The notes under the pieces are model-generated. The model worked only from the letters and a program-made list of their open reading frames with translations. It was not told the DNA's origin and did no database searches. Shown in pieces: positions 35,947 through 40,441 of a DNA stretch of 64,000 nucleotides; positions within the stretch are counted from its first letter, which is position 1; the number at the start of each line of letters is the position of its first letter. Origin of the DNA: an uncultured Opitutia bacterium. GTDB lineage: Bacteria; Verrucomicrobiota; Verrucomicrobiia; Opitutales; Opitutaceae. The translations under genes and the position numbers were made by a program. The stretch covers positions 62,001-126,000 of the forward strand of contig CAIMAQ010000002.1 in assembly GCA_903839035.1 (NCBI GenBank), in the 5' to 3' direction.

Positions 35947-36663
35947 CTACGGGCCGATGCAGATGCGATAGAAACCCGGGGCCAGTCGCTGACCGGCATG
36001 AAGCGTTTTTACGAGGTAATTTTGGAAATATCCGTCCACGACGGCCACCCGCGAGCTCTCGGTCAGCGTGGGCGGACCCACCAAGCCCATCGCATCGACC
36101 GCCACCAGAAACTCCATCGGCTGCCAGGCCCCGCCCGGGGGGCTGGCATTGGCCAAAGGTTGGGCCATAAGTCGCTGGCCATTTACCGCCGCAATAACCT
36201 CAATATATGCATTTCTAGTAATGAGTTGCGTAACAGGTCGATCCGTTTGACCAAGGCCCAAGAATGACAGCCCGGACCGATCCGTCGCCAATGCATCCGC
36301 CGGTCGCGCTGGCACCGCAATGGCGGCGGGAAAGCTCAAATTAAGCTCAGTTTCCGCAAACGCCAGTTTGGCGGGATACCCCTGAAAAGAGCCGCCCGGC
36401 TCGCGTTGGGTGTTCGCCGGCAGGGCATTTTGGCCGGCATTCCACTCCGTCGGCAAAAACAGCGGGGTCGGATCGGTCAGGGCCGCCTCATTGGGCTTCA
36501 GGCTCACCAGCCTGACGGCGCCTCCGGGCGTTTTTGCCGGCGGCAGGGGCCGCACCTGCGTGCTGCCCGGCGCCCGAAAAAACAGGGAGAACGCGACCAG
36601 CATGACGCCGGCGCCAGCCACCGCATAAACCCACCGGTATTGCCGGCCCGCCGCGGTTTTCAT
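35947..36663 (-). CDS. TonB-like protein of an ExbBD operon
   Basis: A 238-residue protein with an N-terminal membrane helix (about 12-29), then a Pro/Ala-rich linker and a C-terminal domain (about 155-238). The domain ends with a strand-rich segment (FLVAVDAMGLVG; APGFYRICIGP) resembling a TonB C-terminal domain. It is last of the TPR-exbB-exbD set, five bases after exbD, so it probably spans the periplasm and passes proton-motive energy to outer membrane receptors. The TonB assignment is by pattern and context, with no strong sequence signature. Confidence 0.6.
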   Translation of the reverse strand: MKTAAGRQYRWVYAVAGAGVMLVAFSLFFRAPGSTQVRPLPPAKTPGGAVRLVSLKPNEAALTDPTPLFLPTEWNAGQNALPANTQREPGGSFQGYPAKLAFAETELNLSFPAAIAVPARPADALATDRSGLSFLGLGQTDRPVTQLITRNAYIEVIAAVNGQRLMAQPLANASPPGGAWQPMEFLVAVDAMGLVGPPTLTESSRVAVVDGYFQNYLVKTLHAGQRLAPGFYRICIGP

Positions 36664-36668
36664 CGTCG

Positions 36669-37118
36669 TCAGCGACCCGGAGCCGGATAGGCCGCGGGTT
36701 CTTCCGCCGCCAGGGTGATGTTCGAACCGAAGCCCGCCTCCCGGGCGGCGCTGACAATTTCATTTTGCACCGACACGGGGACGCCGGCGCTCATGCGCAC
36801 CAGCAGGGAGGGATGCTTGTTTTTCTTCGCCTCGGTTTTCAGCCATTCGCGCAACTGCGGCAGGCTGAGCAAGCCGTCGGCAAAAATCTGCCCGGAGTTC
36901 TTCACGCTGATGGTGCTCGTCGTCGTCACGGCGTTGCTCACCGCGCCGGGCAGTTTCGGCAGCTCAAAATCCACGCCCAGACCCGGCGCGAGTACGAAAC
37001 GGGAGCCGAACACGAAGAAAAAAAGCACCAGCATGCCCGCGTTCACATAGAACAACGCATCGAGGCTCCGCGGCTCCACCCGCAGCTTGGAGGCGAGATC
37101 AAGCGGACGCGTGATCAT
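36669..37118 (-). CDS. exbD: ExbD/TolR-family biopolymer transport protein
   Basis: A 149-residue membrane protein: one helix (about 21-39) and a periplasmic domain of TolR/ExbD type with the pattern GQIFADGLLSLPQLREWL. In ExbD the helix carries an essential Asp near its start. Here an Asn (Asn26, YVNAGMLVLFFF) stands at that place and the nearest Asp is Asp20. Its ATG overlaps the exbB stop by four bases. It forms the energy complex with the neighbouring ExbB-like protein. The name is family-level; TolR is the alternative. Confidence 0.75.
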   Translation of the reverse strand: MITRPLDLASKLRVEPRSLDALFYVNAGMLVLFFFVFGSRFVLAPGLGVDFELPKLPGAVSNAVTTTSTISVKNSGQIFADGLLSLPQLREWLKTEAKKNKHPSLLVRMSAGVPVSVQNEIVSAAREAGFGSNITLAAEEPAAYPAPGR

Positions 37119-37786
37119 TTTTTCTCCCCCGCCCCACCCTCGCCGGCGGGCCCGGTGCCCGGCGACACGCCGCGGTAGTCCGTCTGCAGGTATTTCATGA
37201 TTTCATTCCCCGCCCACTCCACATCGCGCACGATGGCGCGCACGCGGCCGCTCAGGAAATGGTGCGCCAGGTGCGCCGGAATCGCGAGCATCAGGCCGCC
37301 CGCCGTGCAAAGCAGCGCCTGCCACATGCCCTTGGCGAGCACACTGGCCGTGGCGTAGTCCCGTTCGAACGCGAGAAACGTGGTGACAAAGCCCAGGACC
37401 GTGCCGAGCAGGCCGACGAGCGGCGCAACCTGGGCGATCGCCGCGATGCTGCCGAGCCGCCGCTCCAGCACGGGCAGCTCGACGATCGCGGCCTCCTGCA
37501 CATGGAAGCGCATCGCGTCGGCGCTGTCGTCCGCGTGCAGCAGCGCCGCCTTCACCACCGCCGCCACCGGGCCGGGGGTTTCCTCGCACACCGTCAGCGC
37601 CTCGACGATGCGGCGCTTGGCGAGGATGTTCTTGATGCCGCCGATGAAGGCCGTGGATCGGATCTGCCCGCGGTGCAGGTAAAGCGTGCGCTCGATCACG
37701 AGCATAAGGCAGAGCAGGCCGAGCGCGAGCAGCACCCACATCATCGGGCCGCCCTTGGCGAAGAGACTGAAGTCAAAAACGGACAT
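37115..37786 (-). CDS. exbB: ExbB/TolQ/MotA-family proton channel
   Basis: A 223-residue membrane protein with a first helix (about 15-33), a cytoplasmic loop and two further helices (about 115-135 and 155-175). It contains the family block IAQVAPLVGLLGTVLGF and GLMLAIPAHLAHH. It would form the pentameric proton channel with ExbD. It ends in a short Gly/Glu/Lys tail. It follows the TPR gene by 63 bases and overlaps exbD, so one operon. Confidence 0.85.
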   Translation of the reverse strand: MSVFDFSLFAKGGPMMWVLLALGLLCLMLVIERTLYLHRGQIRSTAFIGGIKNILAKRRIVEALTVCEETPGPVAAVVKAALLHADDSADAMRFHVQEAAIVELPVLERRLGSIAAIAQVAPLVGLLGTVLGFVTTFLAFERDYATASVLAKGMWQALLCTAGGLMLAIPAHLAHHFLSGRVRAIVRDVEWAGNEIMKYLQTDYRGVSPGTGPAGEGGAGEKK

Positions 37787-37849
37787 CGTGAGCGGGAGTT
37801 AGACTGGGTTCATTCCGTGGCGTAAATCCGAAAGCATGCGGGGGCGCAC

Positions 37850-40441
37850 TCAGGGTTTCGTCTCCGGGAGTTTGAAGCGGGCCAGCCGCGCCTTCGCCAG
37901 GTCCTCGCCCGGGCTCAGCCTGGCCTTCAGGATCAGCAGCCAGGCCTCCTTGGCCTGCTCGAGTTTTTCCTGCGATTCAAACAGCGTGCCGAGTTCGAGC
38001 AGCGTGCGCGCCATCCAGTAGCGTCCCTTTGCCCCCAGCTGCGCCGCGAGCGCGGGATCCCTGAGCAGGAACTCGTGCACCACGTCCTTCCACCACACCT
38101 CCTCGGCCCGGGCGGCGTCGCCCCGGCGCGCAAACAGATAGCCGAGGTTGAACCCGGCCTCAACCCGCACGTCCACCGGCGCGTCTACGCGGTCGCGCAG
38201 GTGCTCAAACAGGACGATCGCGCGATCCGCCTGGCTGGGGTCGCTGGCGGATTGCGCGTTGTGACATTCCGCCAGCGCGAGCTGTGCGAGGATCACATCC
38301 TTGTGCGCCACGTAGTTGTTCACGAGCGTTTCGTAAACCTGCTGGGCCTGCGGAAACTGGTTAAGTTTCCGCAGCAGGTCGCCCTGCTTGAGCCGGGCGT
38401 AGAACACCAGGTCGCTCTGCTGATACCTCTTCACCAGGTCCTCGATCAGCCGGTTGGCCTCCGCGAAATTCGCGTCCTGGCCGCGGCGCTCCGCCTGCAG
38501 CGCCGCCTGGTAGAGCGCATAGGGTGCGTAGGTGTTGTCCGGAAATTCTTCGGCGAGCTTCGTGAACAGCTGCTGGGCCTCCACGGTCTTGTCCTGCTTC
38601 TCGTAGTGCTCGGCCTCGACAAAGTAGGAATACACCGCGGCGTCCGACCGAGGGAAATCCGCGCGCAGTTTCTTCAACAGCTCCAGCGCATCGGCCTCGC
38701 GCTGAAGGGCAAAGCTCGCCTCGCCCTTCAGCAGCGCGCCCGTGCTTTCCATCTCGCTCTTCAGCGCCGCCGCCACGCCCTCCAGTTTCGCCGGCAGCGC
38801 GTCCACCAGCTTGAGCGTCTGCTCCGGCTGGCCCGCCTCAAGTGACAGCCGGGCTTGCAGCCACGCCATCCGGGCCTGCAACTCCGGCGGCAAGGCCCCG
38901 GGCGCCAGCCGCGGCAACGCGATCAGCCGGTTCACCCGGTCGTAGGCGGCCTTCGTCTGGTCATGCGTCTGCAGCGCGCGCGCCAGGTTCCACTCCGCCT
39001 GCCAGCGGTTCACCGCGTCAAAGGCCGGGTTTTTCGCCAGGTCGTCGAGCACCGTCTGCGCCGTGTCCAGCGAACCGGCCTCCATCTCGGCGAGCACGCG
39101 TTGAAACATCAGGTTGCCCGGCGGCACGCCCGCCGGCGGCTCGGCCAGCGTCGCCGCGTAGGCGTCGGCCGCACTGCGAAAATCCCGCGCCCGGAACCAT
39201 GCCTCGGCCACGAGCACCCCGAGCTGGGCATGTTCCGGACCCGCGGCCAGTTCCGCGCGCGCCTTGGCCGCGTTGTCAGCCGCCGTGCGGTAGCGCAGTT
39301 GCGCCCAGGCCGAGCCGGTCAGCACGCCGAGAGCGTGGGCCTTGAGCGGCGAACCGGGAAACTTCTCCAACAACGCGTGCGCGTCGTCCTCGGCCTGCGC
39401 GTAGTTCCGGTCCGCCAGCGCCAGTTCGGCCCGGAACAGCAGCAGATCCTCCAGGATCGGATGGGCCGCCGGCAGCCCGATCAGCGAATCGAGTTTCTTG
39501 CGGAATTCCGCCCGCGCCGGATCGTGGTCGGACGCCCGGGCGAGCAGCTGGAGGGCGATGCGCTGCTTGTCACGGTCGGCGCCATCGCGCAGCAGTTCGT
39601 TGAGCGCGGTGCGGCCGGCACCTTCGTCCGCACCGGCGATCAGGCCCAGCACGAGGCGCGCGCTGTCCAGCTCGTCCCGTTCCTCCGCCGGCATCGTGGC
39701 GAGCTGCCGTTGCAGGAGTGCGATGGCCTCGCTCTTCCGGCCAAGAGTGTCGAGCATGGCCGCATATGTTCGTGCGATGCCGTAGCCGATCTTGCGGCCT
39801 TGAAACTGTTCGAGGTTCTTGCGCTGGGTCTCCGCCTCGGCGTCCGTCACCGGTCCGAGCCGCAGCCTCGCCTGCTCCCGCGCGAGGATGAAACGCGCCC
39901 GGGAAAAGCTGGTCCCGGCCGCGCCCTCCGCCTGCTGGTAAAGATCCTTGGCCCCGTTCACGTCATTCGCCGCGTCCGCCACCAGCCCCTGCAGGTAGAA
40001 AAACCACGCCCGGTCGGTCACAGCGACCTCGTCGGCCTTGATCGCCGCCAGTTCGGCCCGCGCCACGTCCACCTTGCGCTGCTGAATCGCGGCGAGCGCC
40101 GCGCGCAGATGCCAGGCCGCGCCGTGCCAGCCAATGTAACCCTGCAGGGCCTGCTCCGCCTCGGCCGCCCGGCCGTCGTCCAGCAGCGCGGTGGCCAGCC
40201 GGAGGGTCAGTCGCGCACGATCGCCATCCGGCGCCGCCAGGAGCTTGCGGTACAACTCGGCCGCCACGGCGGGAAATCCCATCTCCGCCGCCCGGTCCGC
40301 CGCCGCCAAGGCGAGGGCATTGTCCCCCGGGGAGGCCGCGCGGGTCGCAGCCACGAGCGGGACCGGGGCGAAGAGCGGCGCCTGCGCGCGCAGGATCATG
40401 GCCGGGGCCAGCAGGAGGACGGGGAGAATTCGAAATCGCAT
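37850..40441 (-). CDS. Large secreted TPR-repeat protein of the ExbBD operon
   Basis: An 863-residue protein with a signal peptide (RFRILPVLLLAPAM, cleavage after about residue 20) and tetratricopeptide-like helical pairs throughout. It resembles the TPR partner proteins coded with ExbBD or TolQR, and BamD/YbgF-type repeats near the C-terminus (EYEKQ..QQLFTKLAEEFPDN). The ATG at 40441 starts the signal peptide; about 30 upstream residues are not coding-like. First gene of the four-gene operon. Probably periplasmic; the partner is unknown. Confidence 0.75.
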   Translation of the reverse strand: MRFRILPVLLLAPAMILRAQAPLFAPVPLVAATRAASPGDNALALAAADRAAEMGFPAVAAELYRKLLAAPDGDRARLTLRLATALLDDGRAAEAEQALQGYIGWHGAAWHLRAALAAIQQRKVDVARAELAAIKADEVAVTDRAWFFYLQGLVADAANDVNGAKDLYQQAEGAAGTSFSRARFILAREQARLRLGPVTDAEAETQRKNLEQFQGRKIGYGIARTYAAMLDTLGRKSEAIALLQRQLATMPAEERDELDSARLVLGLIAGADEGAGRTALNELLRDGADRDKQRIALQLLARASDHDPARAEFRKKLDSLIGLPAAHPILEDLLLFRAELALADRNYAQAEDDAHALLEKFPGSPLKAHALGVLTGSAWAQLRYRTAADNAAKARAELAAGPEHAQLGVLVAEAWFRARDFRSAADAYAATLAEPPAGVPPGNLMFQRVLAEMEAGSLDTAQTVLDDLAKNPAFDAVNRWQAEWNLARALQTHDQTKAAYDRVNRLIALPRLAPGALPPELQARMAWLQARLSLEAGQPEQTLKLVDALPAKLEGVAAALKSEMESTGALLKGEASFALQREADALELLKKLRADFPRSDAAVYSYFVEAEHYEKQDKTVEAQQLFTKLAEEFPDNTYAPYALYQAALQAERRGQDANFAEANRLIEDLVKRYQQSDLVFYARLKQGDLLRKLNQFPQAQQVYETLVNNYVAHKDVILAQLALAECHNAQSASDPSQADRAIVLFEHLRDRVDAPVDVRVEAGFNLGYLFARRGDAARAEEVWWKDVVHEFLLRDPALAAQLGAKGRYWMARTLLELGTLFESQEKLEQAKEAWLLILKARLSPGEDLAKARLARFKLPETKP

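Follow-up and report, generated by a model that had tools for sequence, protein, structure and literature searches.

A recurrent Ton/Tol-type operon with a large TPR partner whose ExbD lacks the proton-site aspartate: possibly a motor turned scaffold

Those ExbBD, TolQR and MotAB complexes that have been characterised are understood as motors driven by protonation of one inner-helix aspartate (Asp), a residue that canonical ExbD, TolR and MotB all carry. Asp25 of ExbD is described as essential in the accessible parts of two publications (PMC6778125, PMC9022066). Tetratricopeptide repeat (TPR) partners of such complexes are also known already, namely TtpD2 in the ExbB-ExbD-TonB setting of Vibrio TonB2 operons (PMC6957404) and the TPR-TolQ-TolR-TolR-vWA clusters of the Planctomycetes-Verrucomicrobia-Chlamydiae (PVC) group (PMC12204202), as far as the available parts of these papers go. 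Here, we describe a four-gene operon in a 64,000-nucleotide stretch of an uncultured Opitutia bacterium (assembly GCA_903839035.1, contig CAIMAQ010000002.1, positions 62,001 to 126,000), which we call the window and in which all positions below are counted. The operon encodes a large TPR protein, an ExbB, an ExbD and a TonB-like arm, in that order and all on the minus strand, and its ExbD carries asparagine (Asn) where E. coli ExbD has the proton-binding Asp25. We lean slightly towards reading it as a Ton/Tol-type complex whose proton site has been dismantled repeatedly and which persists with a putative function as an unpowered tether or scaffold, as suggested by sequence comparison across its order and class. 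The parts of the operon are as follows.

37850..40441, minus strand: TPR protein, 863 aa (open reading frame (ORF); weak TPR/YbgF/BamD-type matches; AlphaFold2; Foldseek)
37115..37786, minus strand: ExbB/TolQ-family protein, 223 aa (PF01618 (MotA_ExbB), 87.2 bits, above cut-off)
36669..37118, minus strand: ExbD/TolR-family protein, 149 aa (PF02472, 35.6 bits, cut-off 25.4)
37041..37043, minus strand: ExbD Asn26 codon AAC, at the position of E. coli ExbD Asp25 in the HMMER alignment to 6tyi
35947..36663, minus strand: TonB-like protein, 238 aa (ORF; no Pfam/NCBIfam match; AlphaFold2 model)
36580..36651, minus strand: predicted TonB-like membrane helix, residues 5-28 (structure model; alignment columns)
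36439..36474, minus strand: TonB-like linker motif DPTPLFLPTEWN, residues 64-75 (conservation in 67 sequences)
35950..36216, minus strand: TonB-like C-terminal domain, about residues 150-238, predicted TonB/TolA-like fold (predicted local distance difference test (pLDDT) mostly above 90; VIA-align)

The four genes, their positions and their tight packing, which an earlier note on this DNA had reported, were borne out by the ORF coordinates: 63 bases separate the TPR and ExbB genes, the ExbB and ExbD genes share 4 bases, and 5 bases lie between ExbD and the TonB-like gene. The ExbB contains a PF01618 domain with the conserved pore pair Thr129 and Thr161, the equivalents of E. coli ExbB T148 and T181 by alignment to TolQ and ExbB structures in the PDB, and it has Gly23 at the position that aligns, weakly, with TolQ Ser28. 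The ExbD contains a PF02472 domain including its periplasmic part, and the ExbD family profile (A3) matches E. coli ExbD 6tyi at E 3.7e-15, the best E against ExbD structures being 3.3e-17. With the Ton system the operon shares the three membrane parts, the ExbB-ExbD-TonB order, a TonB-fold C-terminal domain and an arm of about TonB length; it differs in the Asn at Asp25, the absent TonB-helix His, the absent Pfam TonB_C match, the absence of a nearby receptor, the extra linker motif and the TPR gene that stands first. Its likeness to Tol-Pal is that the ExbB scores best as TolQ, the arm matches TolA domain III and the C-terminus of the TPR protein resembles YbgF/CpoB and BamD, whereas the TolR Asp and the TolA His are absent, none of the four genes is Pal, and no TolB_N match was found in the genome (3.39 Mb, 126 contigs, 97% complete).

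The replacement of the proton-site Asp is not a peculiarity of the window. In the order of the window's genome (order and class below always refer to this genome), 143 of 179 ExbD rows have Asn or Ser at this site (139 Asn, 4 Ser, 36 Asp), two of the Asn rows (L180, L226) being read in a corrected ORF frame; among the 128 representatives left after dropping rows with more than 95% ExbB identity there are 93 Asn, 3 Ser and 32 Asp. The Asn-type members include the cultured Cephaloticoccus (L180 and L198). In a tree of the TPR protein and ExbB with 122 rows, from which six representatives without a usable TPR protein (L069 among them) were excluded, 89 Asp-less rows including the window form one clade with support 100, with L056 standing apart, and nine Asp-bearing rows of the same family adjoin this clade. 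A hundred further class loci yielded 92 ExbDs and eight loci without one; 91 were scored, 29 with Asp and 62 without, and row L342 was excluded as a frame artefact. Counted by our own split, 17 ExbDs outside the order have Asp and 58 do not (n=75), and the class replacements are Gly, Ala, Asn, Ser, Cys and Thr, with single Met, Ile and Gln. In the class ExbB tree, with 136 rows (60 with Asp, 76 without), a 35-row clade lacks Asp entirely, and acid versus non-acid requires 15 parsimony changes, at least six of them forced by starred branches; this is an unrooted count on a tree in which 31 of 133 branches are starred and many inner ones are weak. Such a count does not by itself distinguish loss from regain, and loss is the more natural reading given that the Asp is common to the canonical proteins ExbD, TolR and MotB. 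We considered sequencing error or misalignment as a cause and rejected it: independent genomes agree in large number, and no gaps occur in the alignment around the site.

The same genomes keep ordinary ExbDs elsewhere. In a control of six genomes, Asp is retained by all 26 of the ExbDs scored outside the operon, in a sample of 30 fetched from 38 matches, mostly the best-scoring ones, that leans to canonical proteins; of the four operon ExbDs fetched in the same control, two had Gly, one had Asn and one could not be scored. The window's genome itself has four other ExbDs adjoining ExbBs, one on contig C40, two on C52 and one on C12, all with Asp. The C52 locus (L111, 6845-10479) is a complete ExbB-ExbD-ExbD-TonB-TPR cluster in which both ExbDs have Asp and the TonB has a helix SLAIH and a TonB_C domain; it is therefore a canonical look-alike of the operon within the same genome. 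Our full-text literature searches turned up no paper describing an ExbD/TolR family without the Asp; their coverage leaves out most subscription journals and preprints.

The partner residues of the Asp differ between Asp and non-Asp rows to different degrees. At the ExbB position equivalent to T181 (TolQ T178), Thr or Ser is present in 60 of 60 Asp rows of the class tree, as opposed to 47 of 76 non-Asp rows, the residue being lost in 29 of 76. When losses were placed at random on the tree, all Asp rows were spared in only 2/4446, 2/6683, 0/11587 and 0/16355 simulations (runs with 24-34 lost rows kept; one midpoint-rooted tree, no reversals); this simulation is the sole positive test of the Thr-Asp link. 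Researchers have found that TolR D23 and TolQ T178 are co-conserved and close in a model, and that the SHLS motif is essential (PMC8928145, in the parts available). In the TonB-like helix of the window, Leu22 stands where most Asp-bearing relatives have a His resembling TonB His20, and an SxxxH (SHLS) pattern is absent. Within the order, 29 of 35 Asp rows have this His, as against 0 of 138 readable non-Asp rows, and the ExbB representatives have Ser at position 23 in 29 of 32 Asp cases versus 1 of 96 non-Asp cases. According to the accessible part of a structural source, Ser34 and Trp38 of ExbB contact Ser16 and His20 of TonB, and Ser28 and Trp32 of TolQ contact Ser18 and His22 of TolA (PMC12215075). 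In the class, where six edge cases (L298, L319, L324, L340, L353, L377) were set manually to no His, the counts are 46 rows with Asp and His, 8 with Asp without His, 26 with His without Asp and 43 with neither. A strict joint loss of Asp and His, which looks perfect in the order, thus fails in the class and is retained as an order-level pattern only.

Despite the missing proton site, the operon genes are not decaying. In 11 close pairs within the non-Asp clade, the ratio of nonsynonymous to synonymous substitution rates (Nei-Gojobori, own script) was 0.011-0.071 for ExbB, 0.047-0.213 for ExbD, 0.058-0.241 for the TPR protein and 0.109-0.301 for the TonB-like protein; the values for ExbB mean strong purifying selection.

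In its predicted model, the fourth protein is built like a TonB/TolA arm. The AlphaFold2 model, built with 67 sequences, has an N-terminal helix (residues 5-28) and, after a linker modelled with low confidence, a C-terminal domain of high confidence that consists of strands and a single long helix. When 717 chains were re-aligned with VIA-align, the top four were TolA domain III 1lr0 (Z 5.3), the TonB C-terminus in 9ddz (5.3) and 9dc4 (5.2), and TolAIII 6s3w (4.2), with the next row at Z 2.9; the Z values are modest and the family is consistent. TonB and TolA ranked first only in this re-alignment, and Foldseek with the whole model gave no match at E<=0.001 and placed a TonB C-terminal domain at row 28. 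The suspicion of a TonB-like C-terminus in the earlier note was thus upheld by structure prediction, as was its remark on the weak family signal, since the window protein has no Pfam or NCBIfam match at E<=1, including TonB_C and TonB_2. One of seven class relatives tested, L297, gave a TonB_C score of 24.5 bits (E 3.8e-5, cut-off 24.6). In the linker, D64, F69 and L70 are invariant and P67, L68, P71, T72 and N75 nearly so among the 67 sequences. The pattern can be written D-P-x-P-L-F-L-P-T-x-W-N, and a related DPxxFxLP occurs in class relatives. The motif lies in a disordered linker and is a candidate site for docking of the TPR protein.

The TPR protein begins with MRFRILPVLLLAPAMILRAQA, which looks like a signal peptide by eye, and its mature chain was modelled by AlphaFold2 wholly as an all-helical superhelix of 44 helices (mean pLDDT 89.1), in agreement with the earlier description of a large secreted TPR protein; a Foldseek search with it returned nothing beyond generic TPR scaffolds. 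Among these was the C. jejuni periplasmic flagellar scaffold 9hmf (ranks 32 and 37), which likewise places a long periplasmic TPR chain by a 5:2 motor; the likeness is one of TPR arrangement only, with query-length TM-scores of 0.21 and 0.15 and no sign of kinship. By a hidden Markov model (HMM) scan, a TPR homologue lies upstream in 18 of 20 order loci versus 4 of 79 class loci, and although distant class TPR proteins may be missed because the HMM was built from the order, the homologue appears to be mainly an order-level feature. Vibrio TonB2 operons with TtpD2 also encode a TPR protein with ExbB, ExbD and TonB (PMC6957404, in part), whereas the operon described here has no TtpC, has its TPR gene first rather than last, encodes 863 rather than 425 aa and lacks the proton site; the true look-alike of the Vibrio operons in this genome is the C52 cluster. 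In the PVC vWA clusters, too, a TPR gene precedes TolQ/TolR-like genes and a periplasmic protein with an N-terminal anchor is encoded, and they belong to the same PVC group, but the fourth protein of the operon has a predicted TonB/TolA fold instead of vWA and there is one TolR-like gene, which places it outside that family; the vWA family, in the available part of its description, retains the SHLS His (PMC12204202).

The four-gene operon recurs across the order, and an ExbB-ExbD-TonB-like version recurs across the class. All four genes lie in range on one strand at 172 of the 184 loci examined, which speaks against a chance grouping and bears out the co-occurrence that the earlier note had proposed to check; this is a synteny count and not a prevalence, because the loci were retrieved through ExbB or TonB-like matches and some genomes are present twice. 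The other 12 loci have the TonB-like gene only (3), ExbD and TonB-like (3), no TonB-like gene (3), no TPR gene (1), ExbB only (1) or none (1). Most of the 41 neighbourhoods first read (the window and 40 others) have TPR, ExbB, ExbD and TonB-like in that order; the exceptions have the TonB-like gene only (L060, L073, L075), no family ExbB in reach (L072, L065, L079) or no TPR gene (L069). A single-sequence search found the TonB-like protein in 54 of 132 order genomes, and the ExbB profile matches 369 of 384 class genomes at E<=1e-30, among whose listed matches we counted all 74 order genomes. Beyond the order, the gene that comes after ExbB and ExbD usually encodes a related protein whose end is more clearly TonB-like.

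Taken at face value, these features would fit an inner-membrane complex of the Ton/Tol kind, with an ExbB pentamer around an ExbD pair and the TonB/TolA-fold arm beside it, joined by the large periplasmic TPR scaffold; we infer the 5:2 assembly. The proton site would have been dismantled in the window's clade and independently in several other class clades: ExbD Asp25 is replaced, in many lineages by residues that cannot carry protons, the facing ExbB Thr is relaxed only in rows without the Asp, and this order has also lost the TonB-helix His together with the ExbB Ser that presumably contacts it. Such a complex would no longer be turned by proton flow and may instead form a fixed or tension-bearing link from the inner membrane and wall to the TPR protein or an outer-membrane partner. 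That a Ton/Tol-type family has in this way shed its proton site many times and been retained as a link that spans the envelope without being powered, a former motor serving as a scaffold, seems to us an evenly balanced proposition.

Several observations weigh against an unpowered scaffold. Sign tests on independent pairs, run for His, Thr and Ser versus Asp, fell short of significance, the 14 Asn/Ser rows of the order in the column scan keep Thr129 in 14 of 14 and Thr161 in 12 of 14 cases, ExbB Pro170 is also kept, and the mid-helix His remains in 26 of the 69 class non-Asp rows with data, its loss being strict only in the order. The absence of proton flow, the tether role and the TPR binding are points that we infer. 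Furthermore, the replacement in the window's clade is almost always Asn and not a random residue; the site is therefore still under selection, and Asn might have an active role there. Asn mimics protonated Asp in MotB, according to the accessible parts of two studies (PMC9389320, PMC9022066), and by this analogy the near-fixed Asn suggests a held conformation; the simplest account would be a complex, either unpowered or locked, that connects membrane, wall and TPR scaffold. Where class clades have Gly, Ala, Cys or Ile, the site looks free by comparison of sequences.

The main rival is a mixed ExbD pair, in which the Asn-type ExbD would share the ExbB ring with an Asp-bearing ExbD from elsewhere, so that the partner supplies proton flow and the operon ExbD tunes it. 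Four other Asp-bearing ExbDs are at hand in the genome, and the PVC group is known to have clusters whose two TolR-like genes differ from one another (PMC12204202, in part), but the operon has a single ExbD with its own dedicated ExbB, and the Asp-facing Thr is lost in many non-Asp rows and never in Asp rows, which a proton-fed ring would hardly tolerate; we regard this explanation as doubtful. A relocated site or a different ion could also drive the ring, as in GldLM, where this role has been ascribed to a Glu in the outer subunit. The strong selection on ExbB would suit such coupling, as would the Glu that some rows have at the site aligned with the TolQ TM3 (third transmembrane helix) Glu. 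However, column scans of the ExbD helix and of ExbB TM2 and TM3 found no acid gained in non-Asp rows, the acids that were gained lie in the TM1-TM2 loop or near chain ends, and an acid at ExbD position 20 is equally common in Asp rows (0.63) and class non-Asp rows (0.66). A relocated membrane acid is rejected on these scans, and ion coupling as a whole seems distinctly unlikely to us.

The suggestion of the earlier note, an ordinary proton-driven TonB-type machine for the uptake of large polymers, appears to us the least probable of all and very improbable in itself. It would accord with the TonB/TolA fold of the arm, with the Asp and His of most other families in the order and with the TPR partners of TonB2 operons such as TtpD2 (PMC6957404, in part), while no readable row of the window's clade has either Asp or His, no receptor gene is nearby and the genome has the complete Asp-bearing cluster with SLAIH elsewhere. 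A search for the TonB-dependent-receptor plug gave 10 matches in the genome and 0 in the window, the nearest on the contig being about 66 kb from the operon. Thus, the arm fold, as predicted, and the four-gene co-occurrence proposed in that note stand, whereas the proton channel as the drive is not supported, given the missing Asp and His, and neither is polymer uptake by the location of the receptor matches.

If the unpowered reading is true, close relatives that still have Asp and His would provide before-and-after pairs, and a widespread and strongly conserved Asp-less family would separate the own role of the 5:2 architecture from the contribution of proton flow. The order contains operons with and without the Asp, and the genomes concerned also have canonical systems, which makes the role of an ExbBD unable to use protons directly testable. 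Caution is also called for when such operons are annotated, by domain name, as proton channels or as energisers of uptake.

The operon lies upstream of genes for tRNA-Thr, tuf, tRNA-Trp, secE/nusG, ribosomal proteins and rpoB on the same strand (protein genes named by eye), and the GC skew changes sign at the operon (window positions about 36000-40000), beyond the co-directional rpoB/ribosomal/tuf cluster. Some loci depart from the usual layout. Two have a family ExbB without ExbD (L278, L283), and the ExbD and TonB-like genes of those genomes are found at separate loci (L079 and L065). In the order, L290-L293 have TPR-ExbB-ExbD with Leu or Ala at the Asp site, both pore Thr lost and no adjoining TonB-like gene, and in L286-L288 an ispH-like gene comes after TPR-ExbB and no ExbD was found. 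In the class, the ExbD ORF of L303, L302, L327 and L352 has an apparent second periplasmic ExbD-like domain.

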